64,000 nucleotides of DNA from Brachyspira aalborgi (GTDB lineage: Bacteria > Spirochaetota > Brachyspiria > Brachyspirales > Brachyspiraceae). The stretch spans positions 1,798,001 to 1,862,000 of the forward strand of contig NZ_SAXU01000001.1 in NCBI RefSeq assembly GCF_008016455.1. The letters run 5' to 3'. A model generated the notes under the pieces. The model saw nothing but the letters and a program-made list of their open reading frames with translations. It ran no database searches and had not been told where the DNA came from. The stretch's first letter is position 1; every line of letters begins with the position of its first letter. This document shows positions 19,838-32,020 of the stretch, in pieces. A program made the position numbers and the translations under genes.

Positions 19838-19870
19838 ACAATTTATTTACAACTGACAAGGAGTTTAAAA

Positions 19871-21634
19871 ATGTCAAAATTATATTTTATATTTATATTG
19901 CTTATTTTAATATCATGCGGTTCTTCTCAACAATCCGCAAATAATGTGGATGTTCAAATAATAGGGATGGCTATAAATGAAAAAGAATTGAATGTTATGA
20001 GAGACATACTTTCAAAAAATGGTTTTAATCCAAAAATAAATATGCTGCCTGATTATGCAAGTTTTATTGGGCAATTAGAGGCAAATAATTACGATATTGC
20101 AATAAACAGCTGGAATACTGTAACAGGTAATCCAGATTATGCCGTAAGGTCGTTATTTATAAGCGGGGGAGATTATAATCGTTCAAAAATATCTAACGAA
20201 AAACTTGACAACCTTATAGAAAAAGCGTCAACCGAAAGCTCGGATGCGGCTAAAAATACATATAACGACATAGAAAAAGTTATTATAGACGAAAACGCTT
20301 ATATTATACCGTTATACAATAGAGTAAAAACGCAGGCTTTTAATAAAAAAATATTGGATGAAAGCACGGTTAATATTTATAAAGTCGCAAGTTTGAATAT
20401 AAGCGAAATGTCTTTTATTGATAAAAGTAAAAATGAAACAGACCCGTTATATGTAAGTCAGACATTATCTACTTTGACCTCTTTAGACCCTATAAAAGGT
20501 AATGACGGTTCTATTAATATGATAAATAATCAAATGTATATAAGAATAGTAAATCTTACTACAAACGACCAAATAACCACAAGATATTCTTTATCATATA
20601 ATTACGCTATAGCTCAAGGAAACAAAGATTATTATTTTATTTTAAGAGACGATGTTTATTTTGCAAAAGTTGAAAATAGGCAGGCTGTAAATACTGGGGA
20701 GAGAGTTGGAGCAAGCGATGTAGTATTTTCGTTAAAAAGAGCGAAAGATAGAAATAGCGTCCCTAACCATAGAACATATAGTTTGCATAGCAGTATGGAA
20801 AGAATATCGATAGTTACCGATATAAACGAATTAAGAAATACAAAAACTGAAAATAGCGATGTTTATACGGAACTTTCTCAAAATTTACCCGCTCCTATAA
20901 CCTCTTTAACTTCCGTTAGCTCTCAAGCAAATAATAAAAACGGAGTTTATCAAGTTGTAAAGATAACTACTATAAAACCTTTTCCTCAAGTGTTAAATTA
21001 TCTTGCTCATCAATCCGCTGGAATAGTAAGCGAAAAACAAATTAAAAAAGTTAATACTTATAAGGTTGAAAATTACGACCCAAAAAACGATATAGCTTAC
21101 GGGGACGAATCTACAATAACCGAAGGAGCGAGTTATAATAATACTTTAGTTGTGAGCGGACAATATATAGCTATTTATAAAAACGATTATGAAATATTAT
21201 TGGAAAGAAATCCCGCTTTTATGAAAGACACTGTATATTACCCGAATATAAAAACTTTAAATATAAAATTTATTAGAGATTTGGACGCTTCTGTTTCGGC
21301 TTTAAGAAGCGGAGATATTTATGTTCTATACGATATTATTCCAGATAAATTAAAAGTAATAGAATCCGACTCTAATTTGCTTCTTCAAAAAGTTCCAAGC
21401 AATGCATTAATATTTGCATTTATAAATATGTCGGATGGGCATATAACTTCCGATGTTAATATTAGAAAGGCGATTTTATATTCTATAGACCAAAACGCGT
21501 TTATAGCGGTTAATGATAATTATGGATATAGAGCTTATACTACTATTAGCCCTTTAATTGATACTGGAAATATTCTTAATCAAGATAGAGATAAAGTTAA
21601 AGAATATTTAAAAGCCTATGAAGAAAACAAATAA
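19871..21634 (+). CDS. ABC substrate-binding lipoprotein of the SBP_bac_5 family, apparently circularly permuted
   Basis: 587 residues. The lipoprotein signal ends in LLILISC (C16). In normal family members the sequence around 'LDPLYV...' comes first and the lobe with 'YDIALNGW...GDPDY' last. Here residues ~28-190 contain the normally C-terminal lobe (NNYDIAINSWNTVTGNPDYA, then IIDENAYIIPLYNRV), and residues ~195-587 contain the normally N-terminal part (TDPLYVSQTLSTLTSLDP, the VVFSLKRAKD motif, NIRKAILYSIDQNAF), ending with DKVKEYLKAYEE where the C-terminal lobe would usually begin. No frameshift is visible. It delivers peptide or nickel-type ligands to the permeases encoded next. Confidence 0.8.
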   Translation: MSKLYFIFILLILISCGSSQQSANNVDVQIIGMAINEKELNVMRDILSKNGFNPKINMLPDYASFIGQLEANNYDIAINSWNTVTGNPDYAVRSLFISGGDYNRSKISNEKLDNLIEKASTESSDAAKNTYNDIEKVIIDENAYIIPLYNRVKTQAFNKKILDESTVNIYKVASLNISEMSFIDKSKNETDPLYVSQTLSTLTSLDPIKGNDGSINMINNQMYIRIVNLTTNDQITTRYSLSYNYAIAQGNKDYYFILRDDVYFAKVENRQAVNTGERVGASDVVFSLKRAKDRNSVPNHRTYSLHSSMERISIVTDINELRNTKTENSDVYTELSQNLPAPITSLTSVSSQANNKNGVYQVVKITTIKPFPQVLNYLAHQSAGIVSEKQIKKVNTYKVENYDPKNDIAYGDESTITEGASYNNTLVVSGQYIAIYKNDYEILLERNPAFMKDTVYYPNIKTLNIKFIRDLDASVSALRSGDIYVLYDIIPDKLKVIESDSNLLLQKVPSNALIFAFINMSDGHITSDVNIRKAILYSIDQNAFIAVNDNYGYRAYTTISPLIDTGNILNQDRDKVKEYLKAYEENK

Positions 21635-21651
21635 AATATTAAAATTTATAT

Positions 21652-23046
21652 ATGAAAAATAATATAATTAACAATATTACAAATAATTTTTATAAAATGC
21701 AGAAATTGTTTCTATATAAAATTGCTATAACGATTTTTGGCATATTTACTTATTTATTTATATGGGTAAAAAAATATATCTTGTATAAATATCATAAAAA
21801 ACTATATAGAAACAATTATATTTATTCTGAAACGGATTTTGAAAAATTAGCGGAAGAATACTCTTTTCATATTGAAAAAGAAAAAGAGATATTATCAAAA
21901 AACATATCAAAAGAGGAAAAAGAAAGTCGAATAAAAAAATATATAGACAATATTAAAAAATCTATGAATAAATATATCAATAAAGAAATCAAATCCAATA
22001 TTGAAGATTCCGCCATATTAAAAAATTTATTAGAAAATAATATATTTTTTATATATTCCGTTATATTTTCATTGCCAATGTATATATTAATATATATTTT
22101 TTCTCATTGGTATATGAAATATATATTTGAAAGAATAGTTATGATGTTATTCGTAATGTTTGGGGTAATTTTTTTAGTATTTACAATATTATATATTTCT
22201 CCAATGGATAGCGCCGTAAATATTTTAGGACAGGACGCCACTAAAGAGCAAATAGAAGCTTTTAATAAATCATACGGTTTGGATAAATCGTATATAGAAC
22301 AGTTATTCTATTCTTTGAAAAATATTATTACATTTAATTTAGGCAAATCTTATGTTGGAAACGAAGATATATTTTCGGCAATCGCGCGCAAATTTCCTAT
22401 AACTTTATCTATTTCGTTTTTATCGTTGTTACTTGCAATAATTATAGCGATACCCGCGGGAGTAATATCTTCTATAAAACAATATTCTATATTCGATTAT
22501 GTTTTTATGCTTGTAGCTTTAATAGGTTTATCTATACCAAATTTTTGGATAGGATTAATATTGATATTAAATTTTTCAATTAATCTTAATATTTTTCCTG
22601 CGTCTTTTTCGGTTCATAATATAAGTTCTTATATTATGCCGACAATAGTTTTGGGAACGGGACTTTCGGCGGCGGTAGCGAGAATGACAAGAGCTTCTAT
22701 GTTGGAGATAAAATCATCGGAATTCGTTTTAACCGCTCGAAGCAAAGGGTTAAATGAAAATATCGTTATATTTAGGCATATATTTAAAAACGCTTTAATA
22801 CCAATAATAACGGTTATTGGAATACAACTTGGTTCTATACTTGGCGGAGCGGCGGTTACGGAAAAAGTATTTAATATTAACGGCATAGGAAGTTATATAG
22901 TCGATAAACAATTTATACCAGATATACCCGTTATTTTAGCTGGAGTAGTATATATTTCAATAGTCGTAAGTATAGTTAATTTAATAATGGATATATTATA
23001 CGCTTTTTTAGACCCAAGAATTAAATCGGATATGAAAAATTATTAG
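21652..23046 (+). CDS. ABC transporter permease, DppB/OppB type with N-terminal extension
   Basis: 464 residues; family members are usually 305-340. The core (about residues 155-464) has six helices, the usual LDKSYIEQLFYSL loop and the EAA-type coupling loop TARSKGLNENIVIFRHIFKNA, and ends in FLDPRIKSDM. The extra ~150 residues at the start contain two membrane stretches separated by a lysine-rich, probably cytoplasmic coiled-coil (EEKESRIKKYIDNIKKSMNK). It pairs with the next permease; 17 bases separate it from the binding-protein gene. Confidence 0.88.
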   Translation: MKNNIINNITNNFYKMQKLFLYKIAITIFGIFTYLFIWVKKYILYKYHKKLYRNNYIYSETDFEKLAEEYSFHIEKEKEILSKNISKEEKESRIKKYIDNIKKSMNKYINKEIKSNIEDSAILKNLLENNIFFIYSVIFSLPMYILIYIFSHWYMKYIFERIVMMLFVMFGVIFLVFTILYISPMDSAVNILGQDATKEQIEAFNKSYGLDKSYIEQLFYSLKNIITFNLGKSYVGNEDIFSAIARKFPITLSISFLSLLLAIIIAIPAGVISSIKQYSIFDYVFMLVALIGLSIPNFWIGLILILNFSINLNIFPASFSVHNISSYIMPTIVLGTGLSAAVARMTRASMLEIKSSEFVLTARSKGLNENIVIFRHIFKNALIPIITVIGIQLGSILGGAAVTEKVFNINGIGSYIVDKQFIPDIPVILAGVVYISIVVSIVNLIMDILYAFLDPRIKSDMKNY

Positions 23047-23055
23047 AGTATAATT

Positions 23056-24552
23056 ATGAATTATAGAAAAAGATTAGAAGAAAGCAAATTTATAAAATTT
23101 AGAGAATACGGTTCGCTCAAATTTTCAATAGGAGCTTCTTTATTTGTCGGTATTTTATTATTTTTATTTTCTATAGATATTCCTAAAAGAAGTTTTAATA
23201 TATATGTTATAATCGTATCGATTTTATATTTTCTTTCGTCTATAGTCTCTTATATAATATTAAATAAATTAAAAGAAGATGTCAAAAAATTTAATTATAT
23301 AAAACAAAATACGAGAAAATTAGGATTTATATTAATATCTTTTATATTATTTGCAAATATATTCGCCGTTTCTTCTGGTTTTCTTTTGATAGCTAAAAAG
23401 AAAGAACTTGAATATATATTATTATTTGAAGCTTTTTTAATAAATATTTATATTATATTGGTTTCGTTTATTAATTTATTTAAAGAAAGTATACCTCAAA
23501 AATTTTATATTGGAATAACGATACTTTTTATTACTTCGTTATTTTATTTAATTTCCATATATTTTGTTTCTAAAAAAGATTTAAAATCGAATAAGAAAAT
23601 TTTTTATATTATCGCTATAATATGTATAATTACGGTTGTATTTGGAAATATATTTGCATTGCTATCTGGAATTACGATTATAATTAAGATAAATCATAAA
23701 GACGAAGATATATCTATAGAATTTGTCGATACTTTATATAGAATATTCAAAAATGAAATGGCGGTTATAGGTATGTTTTTTGTTATATTTTTATTTTCAT
23801 TGTCTATAAACAGCGTATTTACATTTAATTATTCCGATGCCATAGAAAATAATTATTCGGCGTTATTAAATCATCCTTCGTTATCTTATCCTTTTGGAAC
23901 TGATAATTACGGCAGAGATGTTTTTAGTAGAATAGTTTTTGGAGCGAGAATATCTTTAATAATAGGAATAATATCCACTTTAATACCGATTGTAATAGGC
24001 GGAATATTAGGCGCGTTATCGGGTTATTATAAAAGAAATGTTGATAATATAATAATGAGAGCTTTGGATGTATTATATTCTATTCCCAATATACTTCTTG
24101 CGATAGCTATTATATCGGTTTTTGGCGCTAATGTTTTTGTATTGATAATAGCGTTAAGTATCAGCGCGATTCCAAAATATGCAAGGACTGTCAGAGCGAG
24201 CGTAATTTCGGTATCAAATATGGAATTTGTAGAAGCGGCTAAAGCTTTAGGAGCAAATAATTTTATAGTTATTTATAAACATATTATTCCAAATGTATTA
24301 TCTCCCGTAATAGTTAGAATGTCTTTAGATATAGGCTCTGCGGTTTTGCAAACCAGCAGTTTAAGTTTTTTGGGTTTAGGTATAGAGCCTCATATACCAG
24401 AATGGGGAAATATATTAAAAACGGGAAGCGTATATCTTGAAACCAATCCTTATATAGCCATATTTCCTGGACTTGCGATTATATTAATGGTATTGGCTTT
24501 TAATTTTTTAGGAGACGGTTTGAGAGACGCTTTAGACCCGAGAATGAAATAA
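23056..24552 (+). CDS. ABC transporter permease, DppC/OppC type with N-terminal extension
   Basis: 498 residues against about 300 for ordinary DppC. The first ~230 residues hold five or six additional hydrophobic segments arranged as a repeated 'FILFANIFAVSSGF ... IIAIICIITVVFGNIFALLSG' pattern, which looks like an internal duplication. The core follows with HPSLSYPFGTDNYGRDVFSR, the coupling loop EAAKALGANNFIVIYKHIIPN and the ending GDGLRDALDPRMK. It works with the other permease in the inner membrane. Nine bases after the previous gene. Confidence 0.88.
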   Translation: MNYRKRLEESKFIKFREYGSLKFSIGASLFVGILLFLFSIDIPKRSFNIYVIIVSILYFLSSIVSYIILNKLKEDVKKFNYIKQNTRKLGFILISFILFANIFAVSSGFLLIAKKKELEYILLFEAFLINIYIILVSFINLFKESIPQKFYIGITILFITSLFYLISIYFVSKKDLKSNKKIFYIIAIICIITVVFGNIFALLSGITIIIKINHKDEDISIEFVDTLYRIFKNEMAVIGMFFVIFLFSLSINSVFTFNYSDAIENNYSALLNHPSLSYPFGTDNYGRDVFSRIVFGARISLIIGIISTLIPIVIGGILGALSGYYKRNVDNIIMRALDVLYSIPNILLAIAIISVFGANVFVLIIALSISAIPKYARTVRASVISVSNMEFVEAAKALGANNFIVIYKHIIPNVLSPVIVRMSLDIGSAVLQTSSLSFLGLGIEPHIPEWGNILKTGSVYLETNPYIAIFPGLAIILMVLAFNFLGDGLRDALDPRMK

Positions 24553-24594: not shown

Positions 24595-25569
24595 ATGAAA
24601 GAAAACGATTTACTGAATATAAAGAATTTGCATGTTCATTATATTAAAGAAGACGAAACGGTTAAAGCCGTTAACGGTATAAATATCTCGTTAAAAAAAG
24701 GAGAAAGTATAGGTATAGTTGGAGAAACTGGAGCGGGAAAAACTACTATGGCGTTGTCTATAATGGGACTTATACCGTATCCTCCTGGAATTATAGTGGA
24801 CGGAGAAATATATTACGAAGGAAAAAATATAATAAATAGCGATAAAAAAGAATACCAAAACATAAGAGGCAAGGGCATATCTATGATATTTCAAGACCCT
24901 ATGACCGCTCTAAATCCTACGATGACTATTGAAAAACAATTAATGGAAGTATTGGACAGCCATGAAAAAAATATGAGTAAAAATGAAAAAAGAAAAACCG
25001 TTATAGAATTACTTGAAATGGTAGGAGTTCAAAGAGATAGATTAAAAGAATATCCTCATCAGTTTTCGGGAGGCATGAAGCAAAGGGTTGTAATAGCTAT
25101 GTCTTTATTATTAAAACCAAAAATTTTAATAGCCGATGAACCGACTACAGCGTTGGATGTCACTATACAAGCTCAAGTTTTGGATATAATAAACAGCCTT
25201 AAAGAAAAATTTAATATGTCTCTTATTCTTATAACTCATGATTTGGGAATAGTAGCCGAAATTTGCGATAGAATATTTATAGTTTATGCGGGCGAAGTAG
25301 TTGAAAGCGGTAATGTAAAAGATGTTTATTTAAATACCAAACACCCATATACAAAAGGACTTTTTAATTCCATACCAAGATTAGATATTGATAACGAAAG
25401 ACTTACCCCGATAGAAGGCGACATGGTTAATCCTGCAAATCTGCCAAGCGGATGTTATTTTCATCCAAGATGCGTATACAAAAAAGATATATGCATAAAT
25501 AAAAAACCTAAATTTACTGGCGTTAATCATGGATATAGCTGTCATTTTTCGTTTGATAACGGAGAGTAA
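24595..25569 (+). CDS. ABC transporter ATPase, DppD/OppD type
   Basis: 324 residues. Walker A is GETGAGKTT, the signature is FSGGMKQRVVIAMSL, Walker B is ILIADEPTTALD and the H-loop is ILITHDLG. The C-terminal oligopeptide-transporter domain has CYFHPRCVYKKDIC, a cysteine-rich motif usual for these ATPases. It powers uptake with its partner encoded six bases downstream. Confidence 0.93.
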   Translation: MKENDLLNIKNLHVHYIKEDETVKAVNGINISLKKGESIGIVGETGAGKTTMALSIMGLIPYPPGIIVDGEIYYEGKNIINSDKKEYQNIRGKGISMIFQDPMTALNPTMTIEKQLMEVLDSHEKNMSKNEKRKTVIELLEMVGVQRDRLKEYPHQFSGGMKQRVVIAMSLLLKPKILIADEPTTALDVTIQAQVLDIINSLKEKFNMSLILITHDLGIVAEICDRIFIVYAGEVVESGNVKDVYLNTKHPYTKGLFNSIPRLDIDNERLTPIEGDMVNPANLPSGCYFHPRCVYKKDICINKKPKFTGVNHGYSCHFSFDNGE

Positions 25570-25574
25570 ATATA

Positions 25575-26531
25575 ATGTTTATACAAACAAAAAATTTATA
25601 TAAATATTTCGACACTCCAAGTGGTAAATTGCATGCCGTAGACAATATAAATATAGGTATGAACGAAGGCGAAACGCTTGGAATTGTGGGAGAATCGGGA
25701 TGTGGAAAAAGCACTTTGGGAAGAGTTATTTTAAGACTTCAAGAACCAGATAGCGGAAATATATATTATGACGGTATGGATATTACAAAATTAAACGACA
25801 GCGACATGAGAAAAATGAGAAGATATATGCAGATAATATTTCAAGACCCCTATTCTTCTTTAAATCCGAGATATACGGTATCGGAAATAATATCCGAACC
25901 TCTTAATTTTTTTAATATATACGAAAATCATAGAGATAAAAAATCGAGAGTGGAAGAGCTTATGGATATAGTGGGTTTAAGTAAGAGATGCTATAATATG
26001 TATCCGCATGAATTTGACGGAGGAAGAAGACAGAGAATAGTAATAGCACGAGCGCTTTCAATAAATCCAAAATTTATAGTTTGTGATGAACCCGTAAGTG
26101 CGTTGGATGTTTCGATACAGGCTCAAATAATAAATCTGCTTATGGATTTGCAAAAATCGTTAAAGCTTACATATATGTTTATATCGCATGATTTATCTGT
26201 GGTAAAACATATATCAAATAATATATCCGTTATGTATTTGGGCGAGATAATAGAAAGCTGCGATAAAAAATCTTTATTTGAATCTCCTATGCATCCATAT
26301 ACAAAAGCCTTGCTTTCCGCCATACCTTCTATAAATTTTAATGAAAATGATAAAATAAAAAAGAATATTATATTAAAAGGCGAAATTTCCTCTCCGATTA
26401 ATCCTAAAAAAGGATGCCGATTTTATAACAGATGTGTTTACGCTAAAGAATACTGTTTAAACGAAAATATAAAATTGGAAGAAGTTAATAATAATCATTA
26501 TGTAGCTTGTTTGAGAGCAAAAGAATTATAA
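25575..26531 (+). CDS. ABC transporter ATPase, DppF/OppF type
   Basis: 318 residues. Walker A is GESGCGKST; Walker B FIVCDEPVSALD; H-loop FISHDLSVV; C-terminal CRFYNRCVYAKEYC. The signature reads FDGGRRQRI instead of the usual SGGQRQRI. The same D-G-G variant is known in other peptide/nickel ATPases, so it is probably functional. It is the last gene of the five-gene operon. Confidence 0.93.
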   Translation: MFIQTKNLYKYFDTPSGKLHAVDNINIGMNEGETLGIVGESGCGKSTLGRVILRLQEPDSGNIYYDGMDITKLNDSDMRKMRRYMQIIFQDPYSSLNPRYTVSEIISEPLNFFNIYENHRDKKSRVEELMDIVGLSKRCYNMYPHEFDGGRRQRIVIARALSINPKFIVCDEPVSALDVSIQAQIINLLMDLQKSLKLTYMFISHDLSVVKHISNNISVMYLGEIIESCDKKSLFESPMHPYTKALLSAIPSINFNENDKIKKNIILKGEISSPINPKKGCRFYNRCVYAKEYCLNENIKLEEVNNNHYVACLRAKEL

Positions 26532-26588
26532 TCGTATTTTAATTTTTAAATAATATGTTATATAATAATAAAACAAAAAGGAATTAAA

Positions 26589-26651
26589 ATGACAGAAGCA
26601 AAACTAAAGCATACAACTTTAGATAATATAGGTTATCACTCTTTTGACTAG
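26589..26651 (+). other. 20-codon reading frame before the cas1 remnant
   Basis: AAGGAATT precedes an ATG and a 20-residue frame (MTEAKLKHTTLDNIGYHSFD) that ends in TAG inside the start of the cas1 remnant, in another frame. It does not look like the start of a Cas1 protein. It could be the 5' end of a lost first cas gene, fused to the 3' part of cas1 by a deletion. Confidence 0.3.
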
Positions 26652-27357
26652 GATTTATAAAAAAAGAGTTTCGCTAGCTAAAAAATTCGTTTACGGAGCG
26701 ACTGAAAATATATTAAGAAATTTGAAATATTATAATGTTAGAGGACGAGATTTAAACGAAGAGATAGAATCGATAACAAAACTTGAAGAAAGTTTAGATT
26801 CTTATAACAGAATAGATGAAATAATGGGAATTGAAGGAAATGTTCACAGAATATATTACAGAAGTTGGAATAAAATTATAAATCAAGAAATAGATTTTGA
26901 AAAAAGAGTAAAACGTCCGCCCGACAATATGATAAACTCTTTAATAAGTTTTTTAAACTCCGTTCTTTATACAAAAATACTTTCTGAAATTTATAGAACG
27001 CAATTAAATCCAACTATTAGTTATTTGCATGAACCTTCGGTTAAAAGATTTTCTTTATCTTTGGATGTCGCCGAAATTTTTAAACCTTTAATAGTCGACA
27101 GATTAATATTTTATTTATTAAATAAAAATATTATATCTGAAAATGATTTTGATAAAGAAAGCAATTTTTTAAGATTAAAAGAAAATGTTCTTCAAAATAT
27201 TATGGGAGAAGTAGAAAAAAGATTAAAGACTACTATAAAACATAGAACATTAAATAGAGATGTTTCTTATAGATATTTAATGAGACTTGAACTTTATAAA
27301 ATAATAAAACATTTGCTCGGAGAAAAAGAATATTCCCCGTTTAAAATATGGTGGTAG
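26644..27357 (+). pseudogene. cas1: cas1, 5'-truncated (type I-B-like)
   Basis: 238 residues against about 330 for a complete type I Cas1. The N-terminal beta-sandwich is missing and the sequence begins directly in the linker helix (KKRVSLAKKFVYGATENIL). The whole alpha-helical catalytic domain is intact, with the metal ligands in IMGIEGNVHRIYY (Glu), YLHEPSVKRFSLSLDVAEIF (His and Asp). The frame is open only from about 26632; there is no ATG, only a TTG with no clear ribosome site. Dimerisation and Cas2 contact depend partly on the missing half, so spacer acquisition is probably lost. cas2 follows two bases after the stop. Confidence 0.8.
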
Positions 27358-27359
27358 AA

Positions 27360-27644
27360 ATGTATATAATTTTAATATATGATATTCAGGTAAACGATGA
27401 AGATAATCCTTATGTATTGAAAAAAGTTTTTAATATTTGCAAAAGGTATCTTAATCATATACAAAAATCGGTATTTGAAGGCGAACTTTCAGAACCTAAA
27501 TACCTTAAATTAAAAGAAGAGCTCTTTGACATATTAAGAGAACATAAAGACTCATGTATAATATTTAAAAGCAGAAACGAAAAGTGGCTTGAAAAAGAGT
27601 TTTTAGTGAAAGAAGATATTGACAAAACTTCAAATTTTATATAA
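27360..27644 (+). CDS. cas2: CRISPR-associated endoribonuclease-fold protein Cas2
   Basis: 94 residues from the ATG at 27360, five bases after GGTGG; an earlier ATG inside the end of cas1 is in frame but lacks a site. The start MYIILIYDI carries the conserved aspartate of the ferredoxin fold, and SVFEGELSEPKYLKLK is the usual next motif. Full length. Cas2 bridges two Cas1 dimers during spacer integration. The CRISPR array begins 166 bases downstream. Confidence 0.92.
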   Translation: MYIILIYDIQVNDEDNPYVLKKVFNICKRYLNHIQKSVFEGELSEPKYLKLKEELFDILREHKDSCIIFKSRNEKWLEKEFLVKEDIDKTSNFI

Positions 27645-27810
27645 AATACAAGTATGTCGATGTTTAATCTATAATAATTTACGGATTATCGACAGACGAT
27701 TTTTAAAATTAATGTCGTATTTTGTATTGTTATATTATTTTATATCAATACTTGTATCAAATTAATATGTAGAAAATATTAGTTTTGCATATTTCAGAGA
27801 GAAAAAACGG
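27645..27810 (+). promoter_or_regulatory. CRISPR leader region with nested inverted repeats
   Basis: 166 AT-rich bases between cas2 and the first repeat, without a gene. An outer pair ATACAAGTAT and ATACTTGTAT flanks about 100 bases, and an inner pair TGTCGAT / ATCGACA lies just inside. This is where a leader promoter and integration-host-type binding would be expected; I cannot assign a -10/-35 pair with confidence. Confidence 0.55.
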
Positions 27811-28444
27811 ATAATAAATCTAACCATATTGGAATGTAAATGCTTTTTGGTGGTCGGCTACGCTTCTTTGAATCGCGATAATAAATCTAACCATATTGGA
27901 ATGTAAATACATTATAAGCAGTAGAAACAGTGATATTTTGGTCAAATAATAAATCTAACCATATTGGAATGTAAATCTTCAATTAATTTGTGTTTATCTA
28001 AATCAATATAAGATAATAAATCTAACCATATTGGAATGTAAATATCAATGATAGATACCAAATGACTTTACGAAAAAAAATAATAAATCTAACCATATTG
28101 GAATGTAAATATATATATAATATGTCAAGTGTATTATATATATCGATAATAAATCTAACCATATTGGAATGTAAATCTGATATATCTTGAAATTTTACGC
28201 CCGTTGCTGCAGATAATAAATCTAACCATATTGGAATGTAAATTCTCAAAAGAGTATAATTTTTCATTACTCCCGCTCCATAATAAATCTAACCATATTG
28301 GAATGTAAATATACATTTTTGACTGACGAACCTATACCGCAAATATATAATAAATCTAACCATATTGGAATGTAAATTAAATCTTTCCAAAATCGTCCTT
28401 TATTATTTCCAAGATAATAAATCTAACCATATTGGAATGTAAAT
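27811..28444 (+). CRISPR. CRISPR array, 10 identical repeats, 9 spacers
   Basis: Ten copies of a 31-base unit: ATAATAAATCTAAC followed by CATATTGGAATGTAAAT. They start at 27811, 27878, 27946, 28013, 28080, 28146, 28213, 28280, 28347 and 28414. Spacers are 35-37 bases. All ten repeats are identical, including the last. The 3' part GGAATGTAAAT matches the type I-B repeat class of Clostridia and relatives, whose last 8 bases form the crRNA 5' handle, so transcription is inferred left to right. The fifth spacer is low-complexity AT. No effector genes are in the window. Confidence 0.97.
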
Positions 28445-28544
28445 GCCCTATTATTCGTCTTTCCAAATTGACAATTCTATTTTAGTTATTAATCGTAGTT
28501 TGGTAAAGATAAACAAAAAAATAAAAAATTTCTCATTATTCCCC

Positions 28545-28573
28545 TTGACTTTTGCCGATTAATTTATTATATT
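28545..28573 (+). promoter_or_regulatory. promoter of the small RNA candidate
   Basis: TTGACT (28545-28550), 17-base spacer, TATATT (28568-28573). The predicted start falls on the G at about 28581, exactly the first base of the closing helix of the RNA. Confidence 0.7.
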
Positions 28574-28580
28574 AAGTATA

Positions 28581-28662
28581 GGTTGGATTTTCGCAAGAGA
28601 CTCAACGCTATAACGAGTAATTGTTATAGGACTGGCTGCTTAAATCCAATCTTTCATTTTTT
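28581..28662 (+). ncRNA. compact structured small RNA candidate, about 80 nt
   Basis: 5' and 3' ends pair in a 10-bp helix: GGTTGGATTT (28581-28590) with AAATCCAATC (28642-28651), one G-U. Inside is a second helix CTATAAC (28608-28614) with GTTATAG (28623-28629) and an eight-base loop GAGTAATT. The loop bases GAGT (28615-28618) are complementary to ACTC (28600-28603), which would make a pseudoknot. The closing helix runs into TTTCATTTTTT, so the same helix serves as terminator. A promoter ends just before it. No plus-strand gene follows, so it is not a riboswitch leader. I do not recognise the class. Confidence 0.6.
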
Positions 28663-28731
28663 GCAATTTTTACAATCATAATTATAAGGACATATCCACT
28701 CGCAATTACTATCTAATATCTCATTAGTCAT
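28654..28731 (-). CDS. 25-residue Cys4 mini-protein
   Basis: The ATG overlaps the stop of the preceding gene (ATGA) and is preceded by GGAGG at good spacing, so it is translationally coupled. The product (MTNEILDSN then CEWICPYNYDCKNCKK) has four cysteines, C10, C14, C20 and C23, in C-x3-C-x5-C-x2-C spacing, enough for one zinc or iron-sulfur site. Its stop lies in the U-tract of the convergent small RNA. I know no family; phage-encoded zinc-binding regulators such as Com are the nearest idea. Confidence 0.6.
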   Translation of the reverse strand: MTNEILDSNCEWICPYNYDCKNCKK

Positions 28732-29273
28732 TTTATTACCTCCAATAATTTATTTTTAATATATTTACTTTCAACTTGTCTGTAACTTAAAAATTGAATA
28801 TTTCTAATAAGCGGTATTTTTATTGAAACGCTTTTGTGAGATAAACTATATTTTGTATTCACGGCTATTTGCAAATATCTATCCTCTCCGACTTTATAGA
28901 GATATAAAAGATTTTTATTATTCTTTTGAAAATAAACATCTCCATAAAGCAAACATTTCAAAATATAATCGGCGTCCGATTTTTCTAAAGCCTCGTTTTT
29001 TAATGCATGTCTTTTCGCTTTTAATCCGTTTAATAATCTTGCTTCAAGTCCTACTGTAACGCTTTCGCCGATATCTATTCCAATTTTATTTTTTAAGTAT
29101 TTTGAAATAGCCGAAGAAATAAAACCGACTGCGGTTATATTTTTAGAATTATTATCATTTTCAAAAGCTTTTTCAATAAAACTTTCAAACTGTTCTTTTT
29201 TGATTTCGTTTCGTAAGATTGTCTCGGCTATATTTTCAAAACGCTTTGGGAAATCTTTTTTTCCTTTTCGCAT
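28728..29273 (-). CDS. phage-type protein, possibly a PBECR-like nuclease domain
   Basis: 181 residues, charged and helical in the N-terminal 90 (KDFPKRFENIAETILRNEIK). The C-terminal part, DYILKCLLYGDVYFQ then NLLYLYKVGEDRYLQIAVN, has the 'I-x-x-x-L...V-x-x-x-K-N-x-L-x-Y...Y-x-x-V-x-V' look of the small phage nuclease domains grouped as PBECR, with a possible active-site Arg-His in LKAKRHALK. Such domains are usually found next to phage head genes, none of which are here, so this may be a prophage remnant. The next gene starts within its stop codon. Function is a guess. Confidence 0.35.
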   Translation of the reverse strand: MRKGKKDFPKRFENIAETILRNEIKKEQFESFIEKAFENDNNSKNITAVGFISSAISKYLKNKIGIDIGESVTVGLEARLLNGLKAKRHALKNEALEKSDADYILKCLLYGDVYFQKNNKNLLYLYKVGEDRYLQIAVNTKYSLSHKSVSIKIPLIRNIQFLSYRQVESKYIKNKLLEVIK

Positions 29274-29479
29274 AAAGTCGTCAAAGAGGACTAAATCACG
29301 GCTATAATTTCCCTTACTTAATTTAATACAAATTAAAATTAAAAATAAGTTAAATAACTAGAAATTCCGACTGTTAATTTTTTACTTCTTTACATTGAAA
29401 AAAGAATTCGCTTTTTAGATTTTTTGTTATCAAAAAAAATAACATAAATACAAATAAAATAATAAAAAGTTTTCATATT

Positions 29480-29794
29480 TTATTTTTCTTCTATAGCGTC
29501 TATAAGTCTTATTAATTCTCTCGACCTGCTTGCTATACTTTCTTTTAATGCCGCTAAAGTGTCGCTTCCCGCTTTGCTGTTTGCAATTTCTAATTTCAAA
29601 TTATCGGCTATATTCAAACAGGCTAATATCGCTATAACATCTCTCGGTTTATCTTGTCCGTAATGTTGCGCTATATCGTTCATACTTTTGTCTACAAAAT
29701 CGGCAAGCTCTATTAAATATTCAATATTCTCTTCGCTCGATTTTATATTCAAAGTTCTTCCAAAAATATTAACTTCTAAACTATTGCTCATCAT
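29480..29794 (-). CDS. zapA: cell-division protein ZapA
   Basis: 104 residues, the family's usual size. It begins SLEVNIFGRTLNIKSSEENIEYL, holds the VDKSMNDIAQ helix and DVIAILACLNIADNLK, and ends in a coiled coil. ZapA bundles FtsZ filaments at the division site. Two adjacent ATGs are possible starts. A long coiled-coil gene lies 20 bases upstream on the same strand. Confidence 0.85.
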   Translation of the reverse strand: MMSNSLEVNIFGRTLNIKSSEENIEYLIELADFVDKSMNDIAQHYGQDKPRDVIAILACLNIADNLKLEIANSKAGSDTLAALKESIASRSRELIRLIDAIEEK

Positions 29795-29814
29795 TTTTCC
29801 TATTTATTATTTTT

Positions 29815-30786
29815 TTATCTCGATTCGTTATCAAAGAAAAATTCTTCTTCCTCATCGTCTCCAAACATATAATTATCTTCTTCGTTTTCTTCAAATAAAT
29901 AATCGTCTTCATTTTCATCGTTATTATTTATATCGTCCATTTCTTCGTCTATATTTTCTTTATCTTCTTCAAATTTATATTCTTTATGTTCGTCTTCAAT
30001 TTTTATATCGTTATCCCAACTCGAATCGGAAGCGCTTGAAAAAGGGTCTTCGTCCTCTGAAACTTTTACGGATGCAATATTTGAATTTTTTTCATAACTA
30101 TAATTAGATATTTCATTATCGCTATTTTCTTTATTATCAAATATATTATCTTCAATAAAATCTTCTTCTTTTTCTTCATTTTCTACTTTGTAATTTTCTA
30201 CATTATCATTATTATCGCTTTCTTTATTATCTAAAGTATTTTCAAAATCATTTTTATTTTCAATTTCTTCTTTATGATAATTAAATGTTTGATTATTATT
30301 TTTATTTTGAATCGACTCTTGATTAAATTCCTGATTATATTTCATTGCGCTGTCGATATCGCTTATTAATTGAGAGAGTTTGCTTTTTAATTTCGTATTT
30401 TCTCTTTTTAAGTTTTCATTTTCCGAATTAAGCAAATTGATTTTATTTTTAAGATTATCGTTTTCTTCTATTAAACTTATAGAATCTTTTTCGGTTTTTT
30501 CCGCGTTTATTTTGAAATTATCTTTTTCTATTCTTGCAGCTTCAAGTTGTTTAAATAAATTATCTCTCTCTTCTTTAAGGTTATTAAGATTATCTATAAT
30601 ATTTCTTTTATCGGTTTCGAGTATAGTTTTTTCTTCTTTAAAAGAATTAATTTTAGTTTCAAGTTCTAATTTCACTTTATTTAAAAAACTTATATTTTCG
30701 GTTAATGCTCTATGTTCCGCCAAAATAGATTCGTATCTGTTTAATAAATCTTTTACCTTTCTCTCTAAAATACTAAATTCTTCCAC
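29815..30786 (-). CDS. coiled-coil protein with acidic tail (ZapB-like partner of ZapA?)
   Basis: 323 residues. Residues ~5-150 are a continuous coiled coil (LKNKINLLNSENENLKRENT region); from ~160 the chain is Asn/Asp/Glu-rich and probably disordered, ending in DDEEEEFFFDNESR. Position directly upstream of zapA in one transcript suggests a divisome role analogous to ZapB. The acidic tail's low complexity means similarity searches will be unreliable. Confidence 0.6.
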   Translation of the reverse strand: MEEFSILERKVKDLLNRYESILAEHRALTENISFLNKVKLELETKINSFKEEKTILETDKRNIIDNLNNLKEERDNLFKQLEAARIEKDNFKINAEKTEKDSISLIEENDNLKNKINLLNSENENLKRENTKLKSKLSQLISDIDSAMKYNQEFNQESIQNKNNNQTFNYHKEEIENKNDFENTLDNKESDNNDNVENYKVENEEKEEDFIEDNIFDNKENSDNEISNYSYEKNSNIASVKVSEDEDPFSSASDSSWDNDIKIEDEHKEYKFEEDKENIDEEMDDINNNDENEDDYLFEENEEDNYMFGDDEEEEFFFDNESR

Positions 30787-30904
30787 TTTTCAACTCCAAA
30801 ATAGCATTCGTATAAATTGTATCATATATAATAGAATTGTCAATTTTAAATTATATGATAGAATAAAATAATATTTAAATAATATAACTATAAAATTAAA
30901 TAAA

Positions 30905-32020
30905 ATGAAAATATTAATTAAAATAATATTATTAACTTTGTTTTTAAGTCATATAAAAATTTATGCGCAATCTCCTTATACGGAAAAAGACCAAAAATTT
31001 TTTAAATCGATGACAACTCTTTTTTCTTTAGTTGAAATTGAAAGACCTACGGAAAGTTTTATCGATTATGATTATATTCATGAAAGTTATAAACGAAATA
31101 ATCCAAGAAAAGATTCTTTTTCTTCAAGAGCTTTATACGAATTATCAACTATAGAGTTTCACATGAATACTTTGATAGGAGCTAATTTAGAAAAAAAACG
31201 ATTTAGTATGCCCGATATGTATCTTTCGCTTGGCAAAAGTTTTCATTACGATTGGATTTTTTCCGCCACGCCTTTTGCGACTTTATCTGGAAAATTTGAT
31301 ATATTAGATAAAAATAAAGCTACAGGAAAAATAGAACTTTACGATGCAGGAATAGAAACGATAACATTTACAAGAATATTATTATCTTTTAGAGTAAAAG
31401 CCGCAAACGATATTAACGGTTCGACTTTTATGCTTATTCCTTCGGTTGTCGATTCTGCAACTGAAAATTTTGAAGATATTCCGCATTGGTATTTGCCTAG
31501 AGTAAATAATGAAATGGGATTAAGAGCGGGTTTTATAGGACATTATTTTGAACTTTCTTATTCTCAAGGTTTTTCTGAAAAATATTCGCCTTTGGCTATT
31601 TTATTTAAAATAAATGGAGATTTTTTTAAAACTCATTTTCTTTATCAATACGATAAAAATAATCTCTCTCCGCATAATTACGGTTATGATAATACTCGTC
31701 ATATAATTCAATTATCCGCTATGGGAAAATTGCCTTTACTAGATAAAATGATTTGGATTAATATGTTGGGTGAATATACTTGGAGACAAAATGACGCTCA
31801 TTATTTAAGATTTGAATTGGGTTTGGAATGGAAAATGCTTAATTTTGCGATTCGTCCTTTATTTTATATAAAAGATAATAATACAAAAGAAATTTATAAA
31901 GAAAAAAGAGATTCATTCTGTTTTGAATATTCGTTTTATTTAAAATTTTCGCCCGTTTATTTCGGTTTTCAAGGTTCTACGGACGGCAGATATTATATAG
32001 GATTGAAAGCTTTATTTTAA
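30905..32020 (+). CDS. predicted outer-membrane beta-barrel protein
   Basis: 371 residues. Signal peptide about residues 1-21 (LLTLFLSHIKIYAQS). The mature protein is rich in alternating aromatic strands with no hydrophobic helices, and finishes in GRYYIGLKALF, a terminal aromatic typical of BamA substrates. No family recognised. It is transcribed divergently from the coiled-coil gene with 118 bases between them. Confidence 0.6.
   Translation: MKILIKIILLTLFLSHIKIYAQSPYTEKDQKFFKSMTTLFSLVEIERPTESFIDYDYIHESYKRNNPRKDSFSSRALYELSTIEFHMNTLIGANLEKKRFSMPDMYLSLGKSFHYDWIFSATPFATLSGKFDILDKNKATGKIELYDAGIETITFTRILLSFRVKAANDINGSTFMLIPSVVDSATENFEDIPHWYLPRVNNEMGLRAGFIGHYFELSYSQGFSEKYSPLAILFKINGDFFKTHFLYQYDKNNLSPHNYGYDNTRHIIQLSAMGKLPLLDKMIWINMLGEYTWRQNDAHYLRFELGLEWKMLNFAIRPLFYIKDNNTKEIYKEKRDSFCFEYSFYLKFSPVYFGFQGSTDGRYYIGLKALF

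Follow-up and report, generated by a model that had tools for sequence, protein, structure and literature searches.

Results

The window, the 64,000-nucleotide stretch of Brachyspira aalborgi DNA analysed here, carries on its forward strand a gene for a 587-aa substrate-binding lipoprotein (19871..21634, +; all coordinates are those of the window) that Pfam, an HMM of canonical members, rotation of the sequence and an hhalign scan identify as a circularly permuted SBP_bac_5 protein. The gene is preceded by an AAGGAG ribosome-binding site (19858..19863, +) and forms a single intact open reading frame from the ATG at 19871 to the stop at 21632-21634, free of frameshifts as the original prediction had it; its length, which had been called normal, lies inside the 501-609 aa range of the ORFs of canonical members. 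Sequence and homologue alignment place a lipoprotein signal peptide (19871..19918, +) at the start, ending with the lipobox LISC, whose Cys16 is invariant in 34/34 aligned homologues. It is followed by residues 24-183 (19940..20419, +), the canonical C-terminal part placed first, which contain the motif W81-TVTGNPDY. Residues 184-189 (20420..20437, +), recognised from the alignment and the AlphaFold2 model, link the old C-terminus to the old N-terminus and include the invariant D184, and residues 190-587 (20438..21631, +) hold the canonical N-terminal and middle part, placed last. The segment SIDQNAF, previously given as the end of the protein, does belong to this last part, but it occupies residues 538-544, 43 residues before the end, and the helix that follows is the true terminus.

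Seventeen bases after the SBP stop begins a set of linked importer genes, all on the same strand. These are a DppB-type permease of 464 aa with an N-terminal extension of ~150 aa (21652..23046, +; Pfam BPD_transp_1 266-458 and BPD_transp_1_N 155-254), a DppC-type permease of 498 aa with a hydrophobic N-terminal extension of ~220 aa (23056..24552, +; BPD_transp_1 315-498), and the DppD-type (24595..25569, +) and DppF-type (25575..26531, +) ATPases, each with ABC_tran and oligo_HPY. B (~480 aa) and C (~500 aa) permeases with D/F ATPases are found in almost all permuted-SBP loci where the flanks allow, the ATPases being often fused and divergent in Bacillales. The earlier statement that the gene was kept with its operon was therefore right and even understated, since the linkage to B, C, D and F spans Bacillota and spirochaetes.

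Several further features of these loci were recorded. The long N-terminal extensions with hydrophobic stretches of both permeases (21652-24552) are kept across the transporter family. The SBP gene is first in the operon in Brachyspira and last in Bacillota (L045, L046, L089) and in G048, which amounts to a cyclic shift of the operon. When neighbouring ORFs were clustered, the only conserved gene outside the transporter was a short ORF immediately 3' of the SBP gene (L048:9859-10416), which recurs in 28 homologous loci and has no Pfam family above cut-off. Rfam searches of eight homologous loci gave no riboswitch pointing to a substrate. Directly after the transporter the window carries a cas1 ORF, cas2 and a CRISPR array of 10 repeats with a unit of ~67 bases (26644-28465); the cas1 ORF has a TTG start and misses the first ~94 profile positions, and no interference genes were seen in 26400-32000. 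Elsewhere in the window genome an 869-aa open frame holds a partial SBP_bac_5 match (G000:C1:1558524-1559288, L041; profile 143-353).

The permuted SBP scores 102.8 bits against PF00496 (SBP_bac_5), for a gathering cut-off of 32.4, with a match split in two. Set separately against the profile, as had been suggested for the two halves, the first 183 residues align with positions 301-367 (weakly, E 0.0021) and residues 247-582 with positions 12-275. A second HMM of 549 positions, built from 38 canonical SBPs of spirochaetes and Bacillota, gave the same picture: residues 37-163 match positions 406-531, residues 197-298 match 51-141 and residues 363-586 match 177-372, each canonical part being present once and without duplication. 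Coverage is lacking only for some 35 positions around the cut and for the poorly scoring residues 299-362. When the sequence was cut at residue 193 and rejoined in the canonical order, Pfam returned one stretch over profile positions 12-367 with 110.5 bits. Because late profile positions come first, and the match from start to end is colinear only once the protein is rotated and not in its native order, we regard it as a permuted relative of SBP_bac_5.

This order was also scanned with hhalign, comparing a 34-sequence family profile with a canonical profile in the native order and in 13 rotations. Scores were maximal for cuts at 185, 190 and 195 (354-356 over 484-492 columns), against 258 over 377 columns in the native order, and dropped for cuts farther off to a lowest value of 200. 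A rotation scan against an HMM built from canonical SBPs of the window genome itself, which are too distant, gave a nearly flat total score and was uninformative. It is a loop of the C-terminal lobe that has been cut open: the new termini lie after the helix DRDKVKEYLKAY (DPEKAKxLLxEAG in canonical proteins) and before the strand that follows it, which now occupies residues 26-33, directly after the lipoprotein signal; the C-terminal helix DRDKVKEYLKAYEENK aligns with canonical DPEKAKALLAEAG.

An AlphaFold2 run with the 34-sequence alignment gave a model of the whole protein with mean pLDDT 86.9 and pTM 0.83, in which residues 181-190, joining the old termini, reach pLDDT 97. Residues 186-585 superpose on 1uqw 3-320 with Z 23.6 in the order-dependent aligner VIA, and have equivalents in DppA, OppA and AppA. 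Alignment of the whole model by Foldseek and VIA was almost confined to residues 183-587 because both aligners depend on chain order, and the first part was therefore modelled alone. Residues 24-192 then gave a fair model (pLDDT 75, pTM 0.49) whose top matches are family-5 SBPs, mostly their C-terminal part, the best being 5u4o 419-484 (Z 7.7, 62 residues at 1.7 A), with DppE 421-494 at Z 6.4. With Z values this modest and an incomplete fragment, the matches are to be read as support for, not proof of, the sequence-based assignment. The protein is thus predicted to adopt the family-5 fold.

We looked for the full-length permuted SBP in 61 genomes taken from around the window genome; 3/26 Brachyspira genomes have it (~80% identity), as does one spirochaete genome outside the genus (48% identity). 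A scan of GTDB contigs yielded 292 related stretches, of which the best 80 are all full-length single ORFs with the same permuted order at ~50% identity, mostly from Paenibacillus, Bacillus and relatives, and also from Alkaliphilus and other Clostridia; an even draw from the phylum of Alkaliphilus gave 4/398 genomes. Altogether the order recurs at full length in 83 further loci (46-80% identity), with 219 columns conserved at 95%. The original prediction had proposed looking for the same order in related genomes, and it was thus found in congeners, in another spirochaete and in the best 80 of the 292 GTDB loci. The permuted gene is under purifying selection, its dN/dS between congeners being 0.10-0.12; in the wider pairs, synonymous sites are close to saturation. 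Phylogenetically, the window protein clusters with sequences of Clostridia and not with the other spirochaete, a placement consistent with horizontal transfer from Bacillota.

A further permuted SBP, the second in Alkaliphilus peptidifermentans (L155:7425-9080), lies close to genes of purine catabolism (xanthine dehydrogenase, deaminase) and has the same cut as the window protein but only distant similarity to it. Searching with it uncovered further permuted groups in Bacillota, which we call types II and III, type I being the window type. Type II, cut as in type I, comprises L155 and L161-L167 together with the linker-free group L199-L206. Type III (L170, L175, L182, L186, L189, L207-L218) is cut near HMM position 246 rather than ~390, following GTGPF...YVPGEYVRLVKNPxYW. 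A rough count from match ranges gives a type II or III protein in ~31/299 sampled genomes, and ~30 of these proteins were checked individually. Intact B, C, D and F genes accompany the type II and III proteins wherever flanks were read, in operons that differ from those of type I.

Discussion

Taken together our results point to a predicted functional, membrane-anchored SBP that belongs to a Dpp/Opp-type ABC importer and has a circularly permuted family-5 fold, a reading to which we give a probability of roughly 0.93. The claim that the normally C-terminal part comes first and the N-terminal region last holds up, as domain order, rotation scan, structure model and more than 80 genomes agree. 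Ligand binding and transfer to the linked permease are very probable. The protein would act in the Venus-flytrap manner and, like DppA, pass the ligand on to the two permeases. A short ordered linker joins the old C- and N-termini, and the new termini lie in the C-terminal-lobe loop; its lipid anchor would enter the C-terminal lobe, so that the receptor may be tethered via the other lobe than DppA. As to the ligand, an Asp at the third position after the conserved Trp holds the peptide amino group in OppA and DppA. The alignment has Asp there in several canonical members (L125, L149 and L031, for example) and Val in L128 and in the permuted SBP (Val84), and ordinary free peptides may therefore not be the ligand. 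NCBIfam has no equivalog for the permuted SBP or for either permease, the SBP scoring 28.1 bits against a cut-off of 594 for GsiB (glutathione; NF011942) and 52.7 against 600 for NikA (NF045468).

How could such a chain order have arisen? An assembly error or a decaying gene is a vanishingly improbable answer, given the same order in more than 80 independent genomes, the intact frame and the dN/dS of 0.10, and a pseudogene or a two-gene frameshift was considered and rejected. A product of identical appearance would result from fusion of the C-terminal half of one SBP paralogue to the N-terminal half of another. Tandem SBP genes do exist (three in a row on G063:C8), and when HMMs specific to the N-half and the C-half were run against 80 canonical SBPs, the two best matches of the N-half, L125 and L126, ranked only 12 and 27 for the C-half. 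Against this, the canonical proteins L178, L176, L128 and L127 take ranks 1-4 with the C-half and ranks 3-6 of 80 with the N-half, and they have in common with the permuted SBP a W-x-TVTGDPDY-like motif, so that we hold fusion to be rather improbable: the presence of the same four canonical proteins near the top for both halves favours permutation within one GsiB/DppA-like gene. Duplication/deletion is a plausible route for it, though no intermediate turned up in our searches; such a gene might have been duplicated in tandem and trimmed in Bacillota, then transferred horizontally to Brachyspira. The permutation is old and did not originate in the window genome, and Brachyspira probably acquired the permuted SBP from Bacillota.

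From an evolutionary point of view the question is whether this happened once. All three types could descend from one ancient permutation, the type III cut being a later re-permutation; types I and II do have the same cut, types II and III are sisters in the LG+C20 tree (96/90), and a quick LG+G4 tree does not reject a clade of all three (p-AU 0.79). The more careful LG+C20 analysis, however, places II and III among canonical SBPs, in a clade from which type I is excluded (100/99), and rejects the single clade (p-AU 0.0015), which makes a common origin unlikely in our judgement. The same-cut permutation of type II was probably an independent event, and at least two origins are likely, though not proven because type I has a long stem. 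On balance we favour the view that family-5 SBPs have been permuted repeatedly: tree and cut speak for at least two events, there may have been three or more, and one loop of the C-terminal lobe would have served twice. The outcome would be widespread, predicted-functional receptors with their lipid tether on the lobe opposite to that of canonical ones.

Bacteria very commonly use SBP_bac_5 proteins as import receptors, and to our knowledge a single chain order is assumed wherever ligand capture, docking and anchoring are modelled. A large natural set with changed order, two cut sites and intact transporters nearby makes it possible to ask directly whether docking and folding depend on chain order and on where the tether sits, and so constitutes an overlooked natural experiment in how such receptors are built and anchored. 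The permuted proteins are also ready-made scaffolds for biosensor design. Profile searches see them as two partial matches, and under-annotation may result.

Like the canonical cluster C SBPs (DppA, OppA, NikA, GsiB, MppA), the window protein matches SBP_bac_5 above cut-off, has the predicted fold, is a lipoprotein by sequence and belongs to a DppBCDF-type operon; unlike them, it has a permuted chain cut in a C-terminal-lobe loop, the anchor on that same lobe, and Val84 in place of the ligand Asp. The nearest canonical relatives of both halves are the GsiB-like SBPs of Bacillota (L128, L127, L176, L178), themselves of canonical order, of which L127 and L128 come closest to GsiB in NCBIfam at ~300 of the 594 bits of its cut-off. 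SBP_bac_5 is the only Pfam family above its cut-off in the window protein, which places it outside cluster B (MglB-like). In the literature, which we covered in part, we found no report of natural permutation in family 5, weak evidence given that coverage, and a single natural permuted SBP. This is TpMglB-2 (Tp0684) of Treponema pallidum, a lipid-anchored sugar SBP of cluster B ("Type Ic / Cluster Bc") with counterparts in spirochaetes and Gram-positive bacteria (PMC4990184). Its crystal structure and glucose binding show that a permuted SBP works, and its authors proposed that the permutation may adapt the protein to anchoring (PMC4990184). The window protein resembles it in being permuted in topology and lipid-anchored, whereas TpMglB-2 belongs to an unrelated SBP family of another fold class and has three N-lobe strands moved to its end. 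Natural permutation of SBPs was thus already known from TpMglB-2; the family-5 case is new as far as we found, and makes a good case that such permutation recurs.
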